Assembly (NCBI GenBank): GCA_030549335.1
Contig: JAUKPH010000017.1
Coordinates: forward strand, 8,207,501-8,271,500
Source of the DNA: Pontederia crassipes
Lineage: Eukaryota; Streptophyta; Magnoliopsida; Commelinales; Pontederiaceae
Direction of reading: 5' to 3'
DNA: 64,000 nt
Shown here: piece by piece, positions 45,005 to 61,551 of the stretch
Position numbering within the stretch: the first letter of the stretch is position 1
Layout of the letters: the number at the start of each line of letters is the position of its first letter
Notes under the pieces: generated by a model
Told to the model about the DNA's origin: nothing
Seen by the model: only the letters and a program-made list of their open reading frames with translations
Databases searched by the model: none
Position numbers and translations under genes: made by a program

Positions 45005-48000
45005 TCAATTTTTGAATGGACCAAGTGTATTTATCATGATTATGAAAATAGAAGCTAACCCCAGTATTTTTTGACAGAATGATTCGAGGTTGGTGGGCTT
45101 TGGATGCCAGCAACAGTAAAATGAGCTCCTTCTAAGCATATTGACAGAAGATTGATACTGGAGAGCCATGACCTGAAAAACAATAAAATCATACAATGTC
45201 ATAATCAAGAAGATAGTCAAACCAAATGACATTCGCCATTAATGGGACCAGCAAATATGATACAAACTGAAAATACAACTAAAATAAAAATAGGATAACT
45301 ATTATTAGTAGTAAAAGTGCAAGAATCTTAATCACAATTACTACTAATAACTTGTCAATTCGAGATGACAAATCTCCATAAGTCTATGTGGAGTGGACCA
45401 AACTCCAATTACATAATTGATCAACACATTTTCAAGGTTCCACTAAATCTAAAACTCATGCATGTATTTATAACATGCAAATACAAATATAACTAACTAC
45501 CCACTATTTTCTTAACCAGCATATAACTTGTAACTACCCATTACTTAATTGACCAGCCACTAACTAATACAAAGTGGTATCTTATCAAAATATCCAACTA
45601 AAAATTCTAGTTCATCAAAATGGAAAAATGACTTTGTAGTTTGCAGAAAAAAACAATACTTTTGATGTTATTACATTTTAGTTTTGTATCGTGAACATCC
45701 CACATATAGAAGCATGTAATAGAAACTCACTGATTAGCTGGTTGGCAGATGAAATGACTTCGGATGGAAATTAAAGTTGTTTATAACCTGAGGATTCACT
45801 TAACAAATGCAATAAATTAACATATTTTTCATGCAAATACAAATGTTATTCGAATTTTTTTTTAGAGGGAAGAAGTATGACTACCATTTTGGTTGCCATC
45901 CAGAAATGGAAATGTCATGTACAAGTGACAAACTCTCTAGAGGAGAGCGGCAAAAAAAAGGGAGGATACAGACCCTAGACAAAACCCCACTCTCGAAGAA
46001 GACAAACCATGTGGTGTACAATGTTGTCCGTCTGACAACTCTCCCCACAAAAAATTGCGTTGGAGTTAGATGGCCCAGGCACTAGCCAAAAAGGTCGCCA
46101 ACAAGGCTCTCCAGCTCGGTCTCTGTCTGCCGAGTCCCCTCATGGACTGCCAAAAGTCTGCATTCACTAGAGGAACATCGCCCAAAATGCTCGTCTGAGA
46201 CCACACCTCCCGAGCCACTCAGCATGCAAAGAATAAATGAGTAACATCATCCTCCATCTCCCCGCACAACACTCAGTAAGTATCCACATGGGGTGCCCAC
46301 CGTGCTATGTAAACTCGATTGAGGGTCCACTCGCACCTCAGAAGTCAAGCAAAGATCTTGACTTTCAGCAAAAACCGAGATCGCCGGATGAGTCTGCAGT
46401 TCACCCTAAGATCCTATGTATTTGGAAGAAAACTGAGGTATAAACTGCGCACCGAGAAAGAATTTGAAATCCAAACCCAACCATCAGCCCGTGCAGGATC
46501 CGCGAGGGAAGGAAGCAATCCTCTGGTGAAGCGCCAGCAATCCTCTGCAAGCATGCCCCCACGTAACAGTCATGCTGCCAAAAAGATAACATCTCCCCGA
46601 AGTCAAACGATGGGCTCATGTTAGGTCGCACACGGGAGAATAATGCTGCCACCCCTCTCCAAAAGGAAGAGGCATCACGACGTAGGATGGGCCTGGGGCC
46701 CCAAGATAGATCTCGACCTTAGAAGAAGACCTCCTTCCATAAGCTTTCCTCGGGTCCATAATACATCCCACCCACCGAGCAAGGAGTGTCCAGTTAGTGC
46801 AACAGAGGTCTCGGACGTCCAATCCACCCTGTGAAGTAGGCCTACAAATACTGTGCTAAGCAACAAGATGAACCCGGTGGGCAGGGCTGCATCCCTGCCA
46901 AAAAAACCTACTCCTCAGAATTAATCTGTGATAGTACCGGGCCCGGCACATGAAGCACAAACATGAAATAGATCAGGAGTGATGAGAGAACATATCTGAG
47001 TAGAATGAGACATCCACCGCTGGATAAGAGCCGAGAACTCCAGCCCTGAAGATGTTGTTCCAGCCGCTCAATGACCGGAGTCCACCTCCGAGCTCAATGA
47101 TCGGAGTCCACCTCCGAAAGCCAATATGCCAGCTCGACAGAGGAAGGCCCAAATAGGTGATGGGTAGGTTGCCAACCGAAGTGCACAACTCCGCCGCACA
47201 GCGCAGAGCGTCCTCCGTCACCATGTCAAATTGGATGAAGGTGAATTTGGCATGGTTGACCACAAGGCCCAACATCGCGTCGAAGATCTCCAGCCATCTA
47301 GCCTCAAGTTCCGACTCCTCGATGAAGAAGACGGTGTCATCCGCATACTGTAGAGCGACCAGACCACCGACGAAGTCACTGAAGAGGCCGGTCTGGCATA
47401 CCTCCTGAGTGCAAACTACTAGTGTGAAGAGCATAGGCGCGAGCGGATACCCCTGCCGTACTCCCCCTGTGGCTGCACCCAACCCCCCCGCCATGGACCC
47501 GTGGACTAGGACCAAGTAGTTGCGCACCGCTTCATCCAGGCGATACGGCCTGCAAGGACTGCCAAAGGAAGCACCATGAAAGAGAGTCATGAGCCTTTGA
47601 AAAAACAACCGTCCAAAGGAAGGCACGGCTGCTGCTCCGTCTCCAATGCGTGAGGATCTCGGAGGCCGTGGTGTAGCAGTCTTCATTTTTGCACTGTCTT
47701 ATTGCAAAGTTTACTCTTAGCTTGAAGTTTAAACTCAGTATGTCTAGCTAATCGGTCATTGATGGATTTGAACTTGGCTTTTTTATGAAAATATGGATTT
47801 TGGATGTTTTATTTTGCATAGCACCGATTCTATTGCTTATCTATGGAATGCTATGTTCTGAATCTCCTTTCCTACGCCACAGTTCCCTGAGAAGGAGCAT
47901 ATGTTGCAGACATTCTAGCCATGAGCCGAAAGGTTAGCAAATTGTAATGGGGGAGATTCTTGCATGCGATCTTCTCTGGAGGTGAATCAAGAGAGGAACC

Positions 48001-51000
48001 TCATAGACTTTTGATGTAGTTACACTTAAATAGCAAATTGACTCGGTTCAAACACGAGAGTGGAAGAACCGAAGAATACCTTTTCACGAGAGTGAGAGGG
48101 ATTCACTTTTAATGTTAGCATCGGAATATAGATTATAAGGAAGTAGCATCTATTCACCAAGTTCACCATAAAATGATCCATCGTGCCTCTACTTTACATA
48201 CCATTTAGTAACACAACTTTTAATTTCGAGATTAATTTTCTTTAGATTATCAAAGTTAAACACAAAAACAACCAAAGAAATTATCAATCCAAAATTACTA
48301 AATACACATCATTGCTTTTCAATCATTTACGTTTACTTGTCATTCATTTCCACAAACCGAACTCCTTCGATACGAATAGTGAAAAACGTCCAACACTCTC
48401 CTTGTGGTTTGGCCCCAATATGTACATCAACGACGGCTGTATACTTACAACCTGAGTAGTATAGTTGGCATCTCCCTCCTGAAGCCAGTCTGCTGGAAGC
48501 ACTGCCTCCACTGGATCTCCACCTTGTTGTTTTCCTACTACATGATCATCTTAGCTTGTCGACGCTATCCCACCTGAACCTCCGTGAGGTGGTGAGAATC
48601 CTCCTCCCGATCAAGCTGAACGATCGTCTCCAAAGCCTCGATCCTCCGTGCCTCCCGGGCCATTCGGATCTATCTCTGGCGATCCTAAAGGAAACGCCTC
48701 AGGCTGAGGAGCTCGGCAGCTAGAGTCCTAGCTGCCGAGTCTAACACCACAACACTCTACCGGTGCTTGGCCACCATCTGTGTAAAACCATCCTCCAAAA
48801 GTCAGGACCGCTCAAAGCAAAAGATGGATCTCAGAGATTGACCATCATTGGACCTCCGAGTAAATTACATGATTAGTCCCCCAACTTTGAGTCGTTTTCA
48901 AACTAGTCCCTCAACTTCAATTTGTAACCAAAACGTCCTTCATCTTTGATTTTCTTGCACAATTAGTCCTCTTGACCGGTGATAGTGGATTTCCTAATTA
49001 CCTTGCATACGTGGCCGACACGTGAGCCATTTTTCTCTTATCCATGTCATTTAAGTCATCCACATCATTTAACGCTACAAAATCGGGTAAATTACACGGA
49101 TCGTTCCCTAACTTTGAGTCTATTTCTAAACGATCCCCTAATTTTGATATTATTGCACGATTCATCCACTTGATCGGTAGAGACAATCTTCTGATTATCT
49201 TGCTGACGTGACGTAATAAAATATAATCAAAAAATTTAACTAGCTGACATCACATGATAAAAAATAATATTATAAAAATTTAAGGGCGTGGGCGAGCTGG
49301 CAGAAGGGGGTGCCGGCCCCCCTCTCCAAACTCACCCTCCGGCGAGTTGGCACAGGGGGCGTCAGCCCCCCCCCCGCTCGCCCTCTGGCGAGTTGACACA
49401 AGGGGCGCCAACACCCCCTCACGAGCTCGTCGGTGTCCTCTATCATTTTTTATTTTTTTATTAATTTATATAATATTTTATTAATATTATATTATTTTTT
49501 TATTGTGCCATGTCAATAAACTCCGCCTATGTTTTATAGTCGGTTCCAAGCCTGGATAAAGGAGGGTTGTGTTAAGCCCCGACAGCCAGCGTAAAACCCT
49601 GTCGAATCTCATGAACATGGATCAACGAGTCGTATGATCCATGTAGCCGACCCCACCTAGTGGGATAAGGCTCTGTTGTTGTTGTTGTTGTTGTGCCATG
49701 TCAATAAATTAATTTTTTTATTATATTTTATTACGTCACGTCAGCAAAATAATAGGGAGACTGTCTCTTACCGGTCAAGTGGATGAATCGTGCAATAATA
49801 TCAAAGTTGGGGGACCGTTTAGAAATCGACTCAAAATTAGGGGATGAGCCATGTAATTTATCCGATTTTGTAACGTTATATGACGTGGATGACTTAAATG
49901 ACATGGATGAGTGAGAAACGGCTCACGTGTCGGCCACGTACGCAAGGCAACCGGGAAACCTACTATCACCGGTCAAGAGGACTAATTGTGCAAGAAAATC
50001 AAAGATGAAGGACGTTCTGATTACAAATTGAAGTTGAGGGACCGATTTGAAAACAACTCAAAGTTGGGGGACTAATCGTGTAATTTACCCTTGGACCTCC
50101 ACAAAAGGGGTGTGGTTTGAAAACGGTCGGTCCATGGCTCGGACATCAGCAAGCTAGTGGGCTTCAACTAATTCAATGGAGCCAAGGAACTTGTCCAAGG
50201 TCTAGATCTGGATGAAGGTGCCGCCGTGCTCCGCCAAGTGAATTTGCATTTCGTGATCGAGAAGACCGACAACAACTGAGAGTCAATGAAATCTCTAAAT
50301 CTCTCTGCTCCAAGATCTCTCCCATGTCGTCTGGTGGGGCGATCATCCATGTCAAGTGTGCCATTGAAGTCGCCCCCGATCAACCAACGGGCGTCTGAAA
50401 GATGAAGACGGGCAACCGAGAGCTCCTCCCACATGTCGGCCCGAAAAGACTCCAAGCTTAGGCCGTAGACACAAAAGAAGAGGTAGGAGGAAACATCCAT
50501 GCTACATCTCAAGTGGGCCGACATCGAGAAGCGGGTCATCCACGAGTCCACCAGGATAAACAGATCAGTCCGCCAACCAATGATACAACCACCGGAATGC
50601 CCCACTGAGCTGAGAGATGTCTTGTGACAGCCAGGAACCACTAATATGCTCCCATATCCGAGTGCTACATTCCTCCCACTCCCTCAAATAGCGGCCAAGG
50701 ATTCAGCGCCTTCCCTCATCGCCGAGGCCGCGAATATTCCATGTCAGCACCTTCATAGGAAACCGTAGTCGTCCCACCTGTAGGTGACCCACTACCCACT
50801 GTTGTCCGATGTTAGGAGCCAATGTTGTCAAAATCGCGAGTTAACTCGTAGAGTCGGCTGGTTTTACGATGTTAATAGGGAAAACCGAGTTGGATCGGTC
50901 GCCAACTCGGTTTTGTCCAGCACGCGATAGGTCGTAGACTCGGTTCGTACGACGTGCTGCCGTGCCAACCTTTTTCTTATTAAGGGCATAACTCATTTTG

Positions 51001-54000
51001 CCCTAACCATTCGATCCATCTCTGTGCCGCCGTTTGTTGTTGTCGCCAGTCGCTGCTGTTTTGTCCAGCACCCGATAGATCGTAGACTCGGTTTGTACGA
51101 CGTGCTGCCGTGCCAACCTTTTTCTTGTTAAGGGCATACCTCATTTTGCCCTAACCATTCGTTCCATCTTTGTGCCGCCGTTTGTTGCTGTCGCCGGTCA
51201 CTGCTGCCGGTGCTGTTGGTGTCGCCGGTCGCTGCTGCTGGTGCTGTTGGCGTCATTGGACGTTGCTGCCCCTGCTGTTGCTGTCGCCGGTTGCTGCCCC
51301 TGCTGCTGCTGCTACTGCCGCCGCCACCTATTGCTTGCCACTCGCCAGGTTTCTGTCCTCTCACGCCTTCTCCCTACCTTTCGACCTCTTCTCACAGCTC
51401 CGGGACGTTCTCTTCTGCTCGCAAGCAGAAGAGAGCGAGTCCTCTCTGCTCACGAGCGATGAAAAACCAGAGAGCTCACATGGCTTGTGAGCCCTCTGCT
51501 TGCTGCTGCTGGTTACTCTCCTCCCTCACTCCTTTTCCTGCATTTTTCCTCCTTCCCTCTCTCCCTGTAGAGCAGTCCTTGCTCTCTCCAGAGAGTAACC
51601 TTTTTTGGGTAGGTGGAAGTCTTGTCCCAACTGCTCCTCTCTGACTCATCCTCTCTATTCAGGAGAGAGGATACAGTCTTTTCTGGATTTGCATAAAGAC
51701 AGGCAATAGAGAGGGTAGTCTTTTTTTTCTTGATTTCCCAACAGGAAAAGACTTTGTACTCTCTCTACTGCAGCATACGTTTTGTTTAAACTTTTTGGTT
51801 CATATTTTTTTCATGCTCTTTTTTAAATGTTTTGATTTTCTGCAGTTTCAAGGTATTACTAATTTATTAATTATTATAACTTATTAAATCATTAAGTATT
51901 TCTACATTTTCTGAATGATATTTAATTATTAATTTACAAATAAATTAGGTGATAAGCAAAAATAATATTAATTTAATTTAAAATATAATTTGGTAGAATC
52001 GACCACGTCGTGCTACGATCTCACGTTTTACGTGTTCACCCAGCCTTTTTGTGTCGACTCCGATTTACGAGTTTGACAACATTGTTTAGATCCACCCCTC
52101 GCGAGCAACAAGAGTCGTTGGTGAGGGCGATGAATGCCAAGGGGCCTTCTCAGGGGGTCCAGCCGCACCGGAAACCTGTCGACGAAGAAACCTCGAGGAC
52201 CGGGGAGGAGGGCAGTCTCGTTGTCTGCCCGAGTCCAGGCGGTTATTGAAGACGATGAGGTGTTGGCCGCCTGCTACGGCACGGCGAGGATGGAGGCGGC
52301 CGCCTTCTACGGCTGGGAAGAGGCCGCCCTGCAATGCCGCCGACGCCGGTAGACACGCGGGGCGAGCCTCTCTCGGCCGCTGCTTCATCGCCTGGGGGTC
52401 TGGCCACCGTGGGGAGGATTCCAGTTGCAGATGGTGACTGGGGTCGGCGCTACCTCCATGTGGGTTGCAGTGGTGGTCGTTGAGTGGTGGTGCAGGTGTG
52501 GAGGGGGGGAGGGAGGTACCGCTGCGAAGCCAACACCCCGGCGAGGAGGTCGCCGGAAGCAGAGGCAGCTGAGGGTGAGGTGGACGGGCGGCTGCCGGGC
52601 TGCTGGAGGCGACGTGGTGCGAATCGGGTGGTGTCCGGGCCGGGTTCCAGAGGAGGTTTGGGTGTGGTTTGGAGGAGGCCCGGGCCAGGTGTGTAAGGAT
52701 TGGGAGTGATGTTGGTTGGACACGGGTTCATGGGGTTGGGCGCGAGTCTGGCTGGGTGGGCGCTGGTTGCGTGACGTGGAGGAATGGGGTGGCTGGTTTG
52801 ATGCGTTGACTGCCGTGGTGGTATGAGGTGGCAGGGGAGGGGTATGGGTGGGGATATGGTTGGAGAGGGGGGGCGTTTGAATTAAAGTTCGGTCGTACGT
52901 CTCCCCACGTGTCCCTCTCACGTGTTGCTCCAAGGGCTCCGGCCAGGGCTGCCTGCTGGAAGACGCCACCGTGCCGCAAGCGACCACTTCGGCCCACGAG
53001 CCCAACGGACCAGCACACTGGAGGTGGAGTAGGTATCTGCTGTCATCGATGCTCAGGATGATCAACGGAGGAAGGCAGCTTCCAGTCTGCAATGCGACCT
53101 CAACAGAAACGGCGGACAGGTCTGTTGAGCCAATCGTCAGCAGGGAGAGCGACAGAGGGGTTCCGATGGCCAGCACGACCTCCGGTTGCAGAGGTGGAGG
53201 GGAATATCCCGGATGTCGATCACAGTCCTTGCTAGAGCCCGGCAAGGCACCGTCCTCTCGCCATGGACGCCACCTGATGGAACAGTCCAACAAGACGGGA
53301 GACAGGCAAGGCCAGGAGGGTCTCCCGCTGCTGGGGCGAGCTGGGGGCAAGGAGGCAGAGCGCTGGTGGCAGGTTGCTCACGTGAAAAGGAGGTGAGGCG
53401 CCGACAGGTGCCACTACTGCCGTTCGAATGGCCGACAGTTCCATGGGGCTGACCGCGGGTTCGCCGACGAGACAGAAATGGAGGAAGTCCCTAGCCTGCT
53501 GCATCAACGGCAACCAGGGAACGACGACACGATCACCTCCTCCCCGACGGTCGCACCAGCATCATGCACAACTGGCCTCCTCCGGCGGGAAAGGTGGCAG
53601 AGAGCTCGACAATGTCCTTCCTTCCCACACTCACGAGACACCTGAGGGGAGACGTACATGAGCGGGCGAAGTGGACCTCCCCAAGGCAGCAGAAACAATG
53701 GGTGGCCGGCAGGCGATTGGAGCGCGATCGAGAGATGGCCGACTGCCCATTGCTCAGTTGTTGTAGTCGCAGCCTCATCCCGGCCAGATGATGGACGGGT
53801 CACAACTAGCTGGCGCCGCCGGCAGGGGCTACCGGAGATGGAAAGGATGGTGCTGTCAGCAGGGGTTGCGGAGACGGCTGGTGGCGCCGCCGGTAGGGGC
53901 TACCGGAGACAAGCGATTAGTCACAACTCAAGGCCGACAACATTCTTTTCTATTAGTTCTTTCATTCGGATTACTCATGCATTTTGTTTGAAGTAGAATA

Positions 54001-57000
54001 TTCCTTGAAGCAACCTTATACCATTCCATTTGTAAGAGAATTGGAAGTCTTGACTTTATTAGCAAAAACAAAAAAGAAAGAAACTCTTGCCTACTTCTAA
54101 AATGTCACAACTCTGAACCCAACTATCTAATGACTGCGGACTGTAAGTTCAGTAAAAGAACATATGCAAGTGGTTGTGAATTAAAAAACTGATATAAACA
54201 AATCATAGCGATACAACCTCCAAATACATAAAAAAATCAGAATGGAAACAACCTGACAAAATCATAGTTATTTTATAAGCAAACTTATATCAATATCGAA
54301 GAGGCCGAAGCATCAAGAAAGAGAAACAGAAAGATTTTCCACATTAAAAGATAAAAGATTATACAATCAAGAAAACTGCTCAATATTACCTTGAGGTTAT
54401 GATAAGAAATGTCCTCAACTCGATGATGTAAAGGCAAATTGTTTTGTAAAGAAACAAAGACCTCTAATAATCGCTTCCTGGAATGGAATAGAAATTGTAT
54501 ATGAGATACGAAATTTATAAGAGTCCTCCAAGATCATATGATTCTTCCGAGCATTCCACTTTCATTGATATGAATGCAGTCTGATTGATCATCTCCCAAC
54601 TAAAGTGCATAATCAAGCATGACACAAAAATTTCAATGACAATAATAAGACTTATTCATTACTTGCACAGAGACGACTCTGTAGATGGAGAGAATGCCCC
54701 TTTCGAGGAAGTGCCTTGTTTTCTCCCAGTTGTTCCCAGGACAACTTCATACAAACCACACTTGTTCCAACATATTGAATACCTATGAACAGAAGTCATA
54801 CAGAGAACTCATTGTGTCATATACTATATTTTAGGTTATAGGGGTATCGGATGCATGATGAGGACAGATACAACCCATTGATTACCCGCATTTCAAAGTG
54901 GGTGCACCACTAGGAGACTGGAACTCTTGTGGTGGACAAGGAGCTTCAGAAATGGATGGCTGAACTAGAAATGTTAAGTTTCCACATGTGAGTTATTACA
55001 ATATACAAGATATCATAATTCAAAACGTAAATCACAAACCTTAAAGGGTCTCAACTGGCTATAAACTGGGCAAGTAACACGGTTATGAATTGCTATTCCA
55101 AGAAAATCTACCATTGAGAATTTTGCAGGAACATCAGAAGGGGATTTGGCCACAGTTATTGTGGAGATATACACAGGTTGTAAAATGTGTGAAAGCAGAC
55201 CACCTGTCAGCAGTACAAATAAAGCAAACACCAGGAGAATAAGATAGATTAGATTTCGGCATATATAATTCTCTCTCTCTATATATATATATATATGAAA
55301 ATTATATAGTTCTTTATGACAAAACGGATATATCAAATTAGCAGAATAAAAGAAATGGGTGATACAAAATGCTCATAGTTTTCCATAGTAAATCATAATT
55401 TAGTTTGATATATAAACATTTGAAATTGAACAACTCAAGTTAAAAAGGACTACCCTTACCTCCTTGAAGGAATCACTCTTAGGTCTTAACTATATAGATT
55501 ATTTAACCTAACATAACTTGACACAAAATCTCTTTCAGGAAAAGTCAAGATACAAACCTTGGATTCCTACAGCATTCCAGCGAATTATCTTATCAAAGCA
55601 ACTCATGGACAAAGTTGTGTCACCACGTCCAGGCTTCTTTTGGACATTGGAAGAAACTTGAGGATAATCATTTGAAGAACAATCTACAACCTCCTTCTTG
55701 GTGGATTCGTTTTCACGTTGAAGTGATGTATCTCTTCCTGCAAAGAAGATAAGGGCACAACGGAATACAAAAAGTACCACACAAGTTTTTAGTCACCATA
55801 AATAATTACATATATTAAGGACAATATCAGAAATACTGGATAGTTTCTTTTCCAAGGGTTATTGCTGCCAATTGAATATTTCTTTTCAAGGTACAAACAA
55901 TCAGACACAACAGGCTCGCACTTTTTTCTTTTGAAAACAGAAAGAGCGACCAGCAAACAGTAACAGGTTATGGGGCCCCTCTGGGTTTCCACCCTATTGA
56001 TAAAAAAGAAGAACGTATCCACAATATACAAAAACGAAGTTACATCGGAGCTAACCAATGGCCCCTAGCTGACTTCGTAAGAGACTATGCAGATAAAACT
56101 ACTGGTGCTTTCTTAACACTCGAACACAAAATCCCCAAAACAATCAAAAGATTTTCCAGATTAAACTTCCAATTGTTCAGGCATCCTTTTTTTGTCTTCT
56201 TGGTATCATATTTTTTCCATGTCAATTAGTTTTTTTATCTCACTAATAATGAGGTGTTTATTTTTGCCGGCCTTAAACTTACAAAATGATAACATATAAC
56301 TAAATATGTCATATGGGTAGCTAGCTGCAGAGAACTTACGCCTTTTTCCTGTGATTTTGTCGTTGTGCAGCAAGCTTCCATCAGCTTGACATTCATGCAC
56401 ATGTGTGGCTGGCAAATCAGAATACGAAAGAATTCCGCCTACAAATCACGATGTATCAGAAGCTACATGAAAGAGGGATCGTGCATCCTAATCGCACCTA
56501 AGGAGAACTACCAAAGATCTCATACAGGGAAGCTGGGAGATATACATGTGCAATCGCCAACCAGGATTCAACTTGTACATTCTCTCGCCAGTACAACCAG
56601 TATCCAAACCAAGAGCTGATCTCGATGCATCGCCTAGCCCCGAATCACCTTCACTACATGCATTCTCACTACTGACGCGCACGAGACGTCCGATTTCGGA
56701 GTAGAAGAACCTGTTCGATAGTAAAGATTCAATCTTCCTTTGCATTTTGCGTTCAAGTTCTGAAGCAAAGTTGAGACTTCTGACAACAACAAAAAAGAAA
56801 ACAAAAAATTGACACACAGGACGAACAGATAGAAGCATGGCGGTAACCTCAAGAGCGATCGCCGAGCAATGATCTCTGCATGGGAGTCGTGGACGACGTC
56901 GCCTTTCGTGCTCAAGAGTGAGCCCCCTATACACTTGGTCCCGGTCCCCATGGCCACGACTTCGATACCTGAGATGCAATCGACAGCGTTAGGAACTACC

Positions 57001-59774: not shown

Positions 59775-61551
59775 ATGGCAGCGGAGAAGCCGGCCACGTT
59801 GGAGCTGCCATCGCCGTCGCCTTCGCCGGCACCGGAGCCCACTCCGGTACCGGGGCCCACTCCGTCACCGGAGACGGAGAAGGTGGAAGAGTCTGTGCCT
59901 CCTGCTGTCGCGAGCAGTACGTCTTTTCTCTTCCTTTTCGTTCTTTCTCCCCTCTGTTTCTTTGTTCGCGTCGTTCATCTGAAACATCCCAGCTTTCAGT
60001 AAAATGTTACCCTTTTCATCTCGCAAGTTCGGGGAATTTTGGATTCTTGATGCCGTGATTTGGCGTGATGGCCTTTTCGGGGGATCATTGGCTCATTGCC
60101 CATTGGAAGCTCCGGAAGATTTTAGCTTGTGGCGAATTGTAGTGTCATAATTTTAATCTGATTCTTACTATTGCTAACACTAGTTCATTAACTCGTTTTA
60201 ATTTCTTGTTCGTGCAGCACAAAATATCTCTGGAGGACCAGTTCACAGAGGTGCGAACGATGATTGTGATTTGCTAAATGAGAGTTTCGTTTATTGGTCT
60301 TTTAGGATTCAGAAGAAAAATTGATTTTTGCCTGCGCAGATGCTGTTCTCACAAAGTTAGAGAGCGAGAAGAAGGAGAATTTAATCAAGGCTTGGGAAGA
60401 AAGTGAGAGGACCAAAGCTGAAAATAAGTAAGAGACTAGTCTTTCATGTCTTGATTGAGGGCACCACAACGAATTGCCTCTCTCTCTCTCTCTCTCCATA
60501 TATACATATAGATAGATCATAGTATGTATCAAGGAGAACTGCCTCAACTACAGAATGGGTTTAAACATGTCCTTGTATTCAGCATAGAGGTTCAATGCTT
60601 TCTAAATGACAAAGTTGGAAGTGTACATACTCTTTTCCCTGTTCCTTGTGATAATTTGAGTGCTTAGTATATGTTAATTTCAGAACATAATAGATATTAT
60701 TTGGTTCTAACTTTATGGCCATATTTGATTCAAATTTCTACCTTTGGAACTACAAACAGAGCCCAGAAGAAGATGTCATCAATTAGTTCTTGGGAGAACA
60801 CAAAGAAGGCAGCTCTTGAGGCTGAGCTGAGAAGATTGGAGGTAATGGTTTTCATTAATACTTGTTGCACCACCTGCATGTTTCGTTTTCAACTAGACAT
60901 TAAACTGTCCTCGTAGTAGAATCCTCAAGAAACCATGAGAGAGCCAGAAGAGTTCTATTTAAGAGAATTCATGACACCAAAAGGTCCAAAACATAGCTCA
61001 ATATAATATTACATACTTCTAAGAGGGAGAGCCAGACGGCGTTTTTATATATCCTAAAGAATTTTATTTTTGGCATGTGCTTGATTTCAAATGGTCTTGA
61101 ATCTTCATACGTCATTGATCATACAATTCGGATGTCCTTAACACTATTATATGCATCGATACTTGAAAAATTGCTTTTGGGGTCTCTGATACTGATGGAA
61201 TGCTTAGTTAGGCTCTTCATAAGGTTCAAATCTCAGTGTCTTAGCCGAATCTCTGTCTAGTTGATAGCTCGCATTCAGTGAAAGTGGACAAAAAGGGAAT
61301 TTTACACATGTTGTGGGGGTAAAGATCTTAATGCACTCGATCATTGTTGGCAGGAAAAAATGGAGAAGAAGAAGGCAGAATATGCTGAAAAGATGAAGAA
61401 CAAAGTCGCCATGGTTCACAGGGAAGCAGAAGAGAAGAGAGCGATGGTTGTGGCCAAGCGCGGGGAGGACATGCTAAAGGTGGAAGAAGAAGCCGCACGG
61501 TATCGTGCTACGGGCCATGCACCAAAGAGTAGTACTGGATGCTTCAGTTGA
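59775..61551 (+). CDS. remorin
   Basis: Remorins are plant-specific proteins on the inner face of the plasma membrane that mark nanodomains and affect immunity, symbiosis and virus movement. Five exons fit in phase: 59775-59916, 60218-60250, 60340-60427, 60760-60841 and 61354-61551, giving 180 residues. The N-terminus is Pro/Ser/Glu-rich and disordered (PSPSPAPEPTPVPGPTP). The C-terminal remorin domain is a coiled coil running from about LTKLESEKKENLIKAWEESE through ISSWENTKKAALEAELRRLE to KKKAEYAEKMKNK. The end (GHAPKSSTGCFS) has the Cys-containing anchor that is usually acylated. Length and order match short remorins of group 1. The start is fixed by the TATA box at 59712. Confidence 0.95.
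60480..60496. repeat. (CT)n microsatellite in remorin intron 3
   Basis: A short uninterrupted CT run within an intron. Confidence 0.9.

Follow-up and report, generated by a model that had tools for sequence, protein, structure and literature searches.

Long introns filled with transposable elements are common in plants. In grapevine, according to the available part of PMC3058033, expressed genes contain 2,697 introns of 3-100 kb, which are >80% repeats, LINEs being one of the main kinds. The last intron (intron 9) of the TAD1 gene of Pontederia crassipes is of the same type: it exceeds 3 kb, consists mostly of repeats that include a LINE insertion, and can be misread as the gap between two genes. 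It also resembles the situation of IBM1 and RPP7, with IBM2, EDM2 and EDM3, in which a sense transposable element stands in an intron ahead of needed exons and brings a risk of early poly(A) addition (PMC10852260, in the portion available); TAD1 itself gives no indication of relying on the IBM2 pathway. Splicing of the grapevine introns is proven by ESTs, and empty sites are found in varieties (in the accessible text of PMC3058033), whereas the TAD1 intron, unlike these introns and those of IBM1 and RPP7, is known from DNA sequence alone; relative to grapevine, what TAD1 offers is a resolved order of nesting. The wheat Au SINE insertions (PMC5787218, as far as its available section goes) likewise place a SINE inside a plant gene intron, but one TAD1 SINE lies two layers deep and the other, known from retrocopies only, appears to have mobilised pieces of the gene. 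The TAD1 nest as such is ordinary for plants; three RNA-derived-looking TAD1 fragments with a SINE in the same intron look less so. The reading favoured here, at a probability of about 0.8, is that this TAD1 still works or did so until recently and that its last intron has filled with transposable elements, the pile most likely being removed by ordinary splicing of exon 9 to exon 10.

The window, that is, the whole stretch analysed, is 64,000 nt of P. crassipes DNA (JAUKPH010000017.1, positions 8,207,501-8,271,500, forward strand); feature coordinates are window positions. Its TAD1 model has ten exons, a 473-aa open frame without a stop, and introns that are all GT-AG. Enzymes of the TAD1/ADAT1 type differ from the ADARs in missing dsRNA-binding domains. 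In the predicted TAD1 protein A_deamin (PF02137) is covered over positions 1-329 and is the sole domain above cut-off, and the zinc/catalytic motifs HAE, PCG and SCFDK are all present (roles assigned through alignment with ADAR2 and from the available part of PMC11120146). The complete A_deamin domain, the zinc ligands, the catalytic Glu and the lack of a dsRNA-binding domain identify the predicted product as a putative tRNA-Ala A37 deaminase of the TAD1/ADAT1 type. An Rfam scan of 40000-64000 gave no match. Yeast Tad1p is dispensable. The initial annotation's description of the gene as essential is not supported by Arabidopsis tad1-2, in which the A37 change is missing from tRNA-Ala and the plants are alive, serving as living material (PMC6874348, in its accessible part). 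Its placement of exons 9 and 10 in phase and 9.2 kb apart agrees with a measured 9217 bp and a phase 0 junction across which the frame stays open. The features of this region, with element classes as predicted from structure, are:

54390-54477, minus strand: TAD1 exon 9, protein end YHNLK, phase 0 end, donor GTAATA
45173-54389, minus strand: TAD1 intron 9, 9217 bp, GT-AG, phase 0 joint of exons 9 and 10
45005-45172, minus strand: TAD1 exon 10, final coding exon, stop included, protein start VMALQYQSS
45855-53910, minus strand: full-length defective LINE in TAD1 sense, 8 copies compared, short A tail
52085-53910, 50091-50819, 48464-48857 and 45855-47681, minus strand: LINE-derived pieces, total 4776 bp
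50820-52084, no strand assigned: hAT-like non-autonomous element, CAATG...CATTG ends, copies start and stop there
48858-50090, no strand assigned: foldback MULE-like element, inverted arms of ~380 bp, 90% complementary
49521-49690, plus strand: SINE within the foldback element, opposite in sense to TAD1, with a (TTG)n tail
47682-48463, no strand assigned: non-LINE patch of 782 bp, part of a longer dispersed repeat, replacing ~575 bp of LINE
46541-46543, no strand assigned: deletion of ~140 bp in the LINE relative to copies (7 covering copies have 139-189 bp more between aligned blocks)
45258-45587, minus strand: 330-bp solo LTR from a small TRIM-like element, with TGATA...TATCA ends, located 85 bp before exon 10

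The coding sequence up to the end of exon 9 is 1254 nt. Intron 9 begins GTAATATT and ends TTTTTCAG; 831 bp of it are assigned to none of the elements (53911-54389, 45588-45854 and 45173-45257, as the sum of the parts).

The largest occupant is, by its sequence features, a LINE: it has a reverse transcriptase (RVT_1, 30.6 bits; cut-off 29.6), an endonuclease match under the curated cut-off (Exo_endo_phos, 18.6 bits; cut-off 24.5), an A-rich tail, a common 3' end (at 45854-45856 in 7 of 7 covering copies) and a full 5' end (at 53909-53910 in 5 of 8). It and its copies are about 60-84% alike. Its orientation is that of TAD1, as had been claimed, but the accompanying figure of about 8 kb of LINE is too large: within the 8056-bp span 4776 bp are LINE-derived and the rest is later insertions, which are absent from all 8 copies fetched from elsewhere. 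No significant target-site duplication of the LINE itself was found, its best candidate being equalled in 119 of 500 shuffles.

The three-layer nest of the initial annotation stands: the LINE received the foldback element, which in turn holds the SINE. The foldback element (arms 48860-49236 and 49711-50088) is bounded by GGAGGTCCAA at 48848-48857 and 50091-50100, a target repeat of 9 bp plus one ambiguous base. The window matches this repeat at these 2 places only, where 0.11 would be expected (2 matches were also seen in 1 of 100 shuffles), and all 8 fetched LINE copies have it once and uninterrupted at the insertion site. Mutator-like elements have long terminal inverted repeats and a 9-11 bp target repeat. 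No transposase frame was seen in 48858-50090, and the assignment, made from arms and target repeat, goes as far as MULE-like only. As RNA, the element has a predicted fold of -763.6 kcal/mol, a raw value with no shuffled baseline. The SINE, oriented presumably by its (TTG)n tail, has an 18-bp direct repeat, TTTATTGACATGGCACAA, 17 bp of which match exactly twice and in none of 100 shuffles. Its class is read from its shortness, its many copies (39 further scored places at 93-97% match), its simple 3' tail and its long target repeat.

A second inverted-repeat element within the LINE, also predicted earlier, looks hAT-like. Elements of the hAT kind have an 8-bp target repeat and short inverted CA..TG ends. 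This one contains a 148-bp internal tandem duplication, its site is empty in 8 LINE copies, and its flanking octamers, GATCTAAA and GCTCCTAA, are alike at 5 of 8 positions. The patch, the ~140-bp deletion and the solo LTR had been overlooked. In place of the patch, all 7 covering LINE copies have 509-582 bp of LINE; its junctions show CCAAC and GAC microhomology, judged by eye. Its description as a complete inserted element was dropped: copies of the repeat run past both ends. The TRIM/solo LTR assignment is based on TG..CA ends, a 5-bp target repeat (AAATA / AAATA) and LTR pairs found elsewhere, whose primer site we take to be initiator-Met-like; there are many copies at 87-93%. Intron 9 would have started at ~0.8 kb. 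The full-length LINE entered it and then gained the foldback MULE-like element, the hAT-like element, the SINE and a repair patch, a solo LTR being added beside it; the whole pile would be taken out by a splice that joins the donor of exon 9 to the acceptor of exon 10.

Repeats are the usual place of assembly failure, and the size of the intron might be suspected on that account. Target-site repeats or microhomology are found at all nested junctions except the LINE's own, however, and exon 10 is in phase, none of which a mis-join would produce; an assembly error is accordingly very improbable.

The case for exon 10 comes from the A_deamin profile. With exon 10 the score is 233.8 bits over positions 1-329; without it the score is 218.5 bits and the match ends at 300. 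The intron has 31 acceptor-like sites, 15 of which (exon 10 included) open >=25 aa in phase 0. Seven of the 14 decoy exons so found were scored, giving 115.0-117.2 bits, against 129.6 with exon 10. That exon 10 is unused, the true last exon lying elsewhere in the intron or having been replaced, is a notion that gains something from exon 10 being too short by itself for recognition in Pfam or PDB; it is nevertheless highly unlikely, as none of the 7 tested decoys lengthens the domain (each gains <=2.5 bits), whereas exon 10 gains 14.9 bits and alone reaches profile position 329 of 329. Its alignment to ADAR2 extends to residue 697 and supplies counterparts of the IP6-pocket residues Y668, Q669, W687 and K690 (PMC11120146, in the part available). 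Completion of A_deamin by exon 10 alone among the tested exons, together with these counterparts, argues that it is real. The predicted C-terminus also has features that count against the main reading: exon 10 by itself found no match in Pfam or PDB, ADAR2 K672 and E689 become V and P, and an unusual 23-residue tail follows LESF. A search of the assembly by DNA and protein for an intact C-terminal exon at another place found none; exon 10 DNA has one genome match, itself.

Without exon 10, the catalytic domain would lack its end and the IP6 pocket would be incomplete; it is on this ground that we infer splicing across intron 9, and with it TAD1 function. The layout of the intron, the insertion order, the open frame and the single occurrence of exon 10 in the assembly are shown directly. 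The nest might instead trap transcripts, yielding intronic ends and a truncated protein without exon 10 as the gene decays, or the full form might need anti-termination of the IBM2/EDM2/ASI1 type. Arabidopsis IBM1 and RPP7 are precedents (PMC10852260, available portion), a sense solo LTR joins the same-sense LINE near the acceptor, and a motif scan finds 9 sense AATAAA in intron 9, although a hexamer count does not prove poly(A) use and none of the 9 is in the last 1.8 kb of the LINE or in the solo LTR. Set against such trapping are the frame of ten exons and the catalytic residues, intact despite an old LINE, and a CpG o/e in the LINE pieces of 0.70, only slightly below the 0.74-0.82 of 7 other copies, so that this LINE bears no strong methylation scar of its own; CpG depletion was set aside as too weak a sign of one. 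(The CpG o/e of the solo LTR is very low, 0.16.) An indirect hint in favour of trapping, and of transcripts that stop before the LINE, comes from retrocopies, described below, suggesting that TAD1 RNA with intron 9 unspliced and a SINE in it once existed; they stem, however, from a diverged TAD1 copy. On balance trapping is unlikely, and removal of the pile by splicing remains the preferred reading.

A first search (7 candidates, 2 matches, both this gene) had indicated a single A_deamin locus in the genome. This is wrong for partial copies: a protein search of the assembly finds them on C14, C3 and C1. All three fragments, L063, L064 and L065, break at the same point and continue into a SINE in the same sense as the TAD1 part:

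54246, minus strand: TAD1-to-SINE junction point of L063, L064 and L065, in intron 9

The window has no SINE at 54246. The three 5' ends differ. Target duplications surround the whole unit in L063 (16 bp) and L064 (17 bp); the best found for L065 is 6 bp only. Introns 6-8 are kept in L063 and L064, whereas L065 lacks intron 8 and has the final 11 nt of exon 8 fused exactly to exon 9. L063 and L064 have 28 common differences from the window over 912 sites, with 6 and 2 private, making it unlikely that the common differences arose in the window gene itself. The fragments look like retrocopies of a SINE-tagged, partly spliced TAD1 RNA, whose source would be a diverged gene copy absent from the assembly. 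The common junction, with intron 8 kept or lost, points to one transcribed source with an intronic SINE and not to separate jumps. The partial copies also show the start of intron 9 unspliced in RNA of some TAD1 copy, an observation that tells against the main reading.

Human SVA 5' transduction, in which host sequence is carried with a retroposon, is similar to the TAD1 fragments. Host sequence and retroposon inserted elsewhere, target repeats and 5' truncation are also shared with dog SINE transductions (PMC12458276, in part) and Magnaporthe chimeric pseudogenes (PMC2104539, in part); unlike any of these chimeras, the three plant TAD1 copies have one common intronic junction, with intron 8 kept or lost. 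The odds are even that a second TAD1 copy, diverged and missing from the assembly, bore a sense SINE at the equivalent of 54246, and that on three or more occasions LINE machinery mobilised its partly spliced nuclear RNA by way of the SINE tail, leaving dispersed 5'-truncated fragments; intron 9 would thus have captured transcripts before.

The nest provides a clean, datable case of a plant intron growing >10-fold while the frame remains open, and an annotation trap, since the final exon can readily be missed. The SINE-tailed fragments are of greater interest. Read as fossil RNAs, they record which introns had been spliced and where a transposon stood, and they suggest that plant intronic SINEs can carry host exons to new sites even when splicing is incomplete. 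If the proposed history is true, an intronic SINE can make a plant housekeeping gene give rise to exon cassettes that are retrotransposed unspliced, and the LINE intron of today would be a second episode of this kind at the same location.

Reassembled one exon at a time on the minus strand, the TAD1 model has 10 exons, all of its introns are GT-AG, and its stop-free frame encodes 473 aa. Intron 9 occupies 45173-54389 (9217 bp, phase 0), so that the initial annotation's 9.2 kb last intron between in-phase exons holds; the second-largest TAD1 intron is 602 bp. The full protein covers all 329 positions of Pfam A_deamin (233.8 bits); with exon 10 left out, coverage ends at position 300 (218.5 bits). 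Acceptor-like sites were collected as decoys to see whether other stretches equal exon 10. There are 31, and behind 15 of them, exon 10 included, the phase-0 frame stays open for 25 aa or more. Scored on the C-terminal half of TAD1, exon 10 gives 129.6 bits, compared with 115.0-117.2 bits for 7 of the 14 decoys substituted for it and 114.7 bits when nothing is added. The divergent remorin gene upstream of TAD1 (59776-61540, plus strand) is a separate neighbor whose four joined exon guesses match Remorin_C at 98.3 bits.

The phmmer alignment of the TAD1 protein with human ADAR2 extends to ADAR2 residue 697, and the final codon of exon 9 is the counterpart of K662. Among the IP6-contacting ADAR2 residues as tabulated in a review (PMC11120146), Y668, Q669, W687 and K690 have identical counterparts in exon 10; D695 is changed to E, K672 to V and E689 to P. 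Since these counterparts sit in exon 10, a protein cut before it would lose part of the IP6 pocket that ADARs need. An intact C-terminal exon elsewhere, one of the alternatives named by the initial annotation, was sought in the assembly with both DNA and protein and was not found: the DNA search of 1.13 Gb returned one candidate whose sole match is exon 10 itself, and the protein search found exon 10 only at the TAD1 locus of the window. (A DNA search that included the flanks of exon 10 was flooded by LTR copies and is excluded from this result.)

Comparison with eight genomic copies (L039-L046, fetched from 40 scored candidates in each of two listings; 5.3-5.8 kb, uninterrupted) places the LINE of intron 9 between 53910 and 45855. 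All seven copies that reach the 3' end put it at 45854-45856, and five of eight put the 5' end at 53909-53910; no target repeat of the LINE's own was found at its ends. Its blocks are 60-81% identical to these copies, the best pieces among the matches listed reaching 84%; one frame matches RVT_1 barely above the cut-off and another an endonuclease family below it. The LINE is thus a full-length element, but an old and broken one. In some copies (L040 near 6440, L042 near 659) the first 35-40 bp are tandemly repeated at the 5' end, resembling promoter monomers. Two LINE copies, at C8:700348-711802 and C7:72587141-72597782 of the assembly, share a matched-piece pattern and a similar span, and look like one insertion duplicated together with its segment. 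The elements nested in or beside the LINE are:

48858-50090, foldback element, arms 90% complementary, GGAGGTCCAA flanking both sides
49521-49690, SINE inside the foldback element, 18-bp repeat
50820-52084, hAT-like element, ends CAATG/CATTG, absent from all eight LINE copies
47682-48463, patch, where all seven covering copies have 509-582 bp of LINE
45258-45587, solo LTR in TAD1 sense, AAATA at both flanks, 85 bp before exon 10

GGAGGTCCAA is single in the empty sites of all eight LINE copies, with minor substitutions in some. As RNA cotranscribed with TAD1, the foldback element is predicted to form a hairpin with arms of ~380 bp (-763.6 kcal/mol), a possible source of small RNA within the pre-mRNA. 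The SINE is young, as 39 other scored places match it at 93-97%. The octamers flanking the hAT-like element agree at only 5 of 8 positions, a sign of either greater age or a mistaken label; the element contains a tandem duplication of 148 bp, 93% alike (50910-51205). The patch aligns to a dispersed repeat, copies of which run beyond both patch ends, and CCAAC and GAC are shared bases at the patch junctions; the patch resembles break repair that copied a foreign template, a mechanism we infer. The solo LTR has a CpG o/e of 0.16, far below the rest of intron 9 (0.56-1.04). Nearest-copy identity, a rough clock only, is lowest for the LINE (up to 84%), higher for the foldback element (86%) and the LTR (93%), and highest for the SINE (97%), consistent with the nesting order. 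Stripped of all elements, the intron measures 831 bp.

Protein search of the genome also finds pieces of TAD1 on contigs C14, C3 and C1, and intron-9 DNA matches the same places, every match ending at 54246:

L063, C14:53905170-53906671
L064, C3:18095795-18096899
L065, C1:19074327-19074745

Each fragment carries TAD1 sequence in gene order to 54246 and then directly a SINE in TAD1 sense, which begins TATGTTTTATAG and ends in TTG repeats. A search with the 30-base junction, allowing up to 3 mismatches, recovers these three places alone, each without a mismatch; the junction is absent from the window, and its reversed control has no matches. The 5' ends differ, lying in intron 5 (~55500), in exon 6 (~55157) and 11 nt before the end of exon 8. 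Exact repeats of 16 bp in L063 and 17 bp in L064 bound the whole unit; around the L065 unit none was found (best 6 bp). L063 and L064 retain introns 6, 7 and 8. In L065, by contrast, exon 9 follows directly on the final 11 nt of exon 8, so intron 8 had been spliced out of its source RNA. Immediately after the L065 unit (~1530-1640) lies another SINE fragment, a short one, which has a long TTG tail and is flanked by a repeat of its own, AATGAACAATTATTTG (by eye).

Uneven 5' ends combined with a common 3' end, together with the target repeats and the spliced junction, indicate that the three fragments were copied through RNA. With a single spliced copy beside two unspliced ones, their source was probably a transcribed locus that comprised exons 8 and 9 with intron 8 between them and had a SINE in its intron 9. 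The source RNA need not have ended inside the SINE; priming within the TTG tail would suffice. A single template jump could instead have made a chimeric locus that was afterwards transcribed and copied, which is less simple and likewise requires a transcribed, spliceable source. As to which locus was transcribed and copied, L063 and L064 differ alike from the window at 28 of 912 ungapped sites (11/400 exonic, 17/512 intronic), against 6 and 2 private differences, respectively. This suggests that the source was not the present-day window gene but a ~3%-diverged relative absent from the assembly, or another haplotype. Judged by eye, roughly 6 of the 11 exonic differences are amino-acid replacements, which is compatible with a functional source or a non-functional one.

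The transposon nest reported in the last TAD1 intron is thus real and was well described; the accompanying description of the gene as essential is unsupported, since passages of a report on Arabidopsis (PMC6874348) describe tad1-2 plants, in which the A37 change is missing. A less probable alternative, by analogy with IBM1, the precedent described in part of PMC10852260, would be that the nest traps or gates transcripts. The simplest reading is that the nest's only effect is a longer intron 9. In grape, according to a section of PMC3058033, expressed genes contain 2,697 introns of 3-100 kb that are >80% repeats, and the nest in TAD1 is ordinary in kind.
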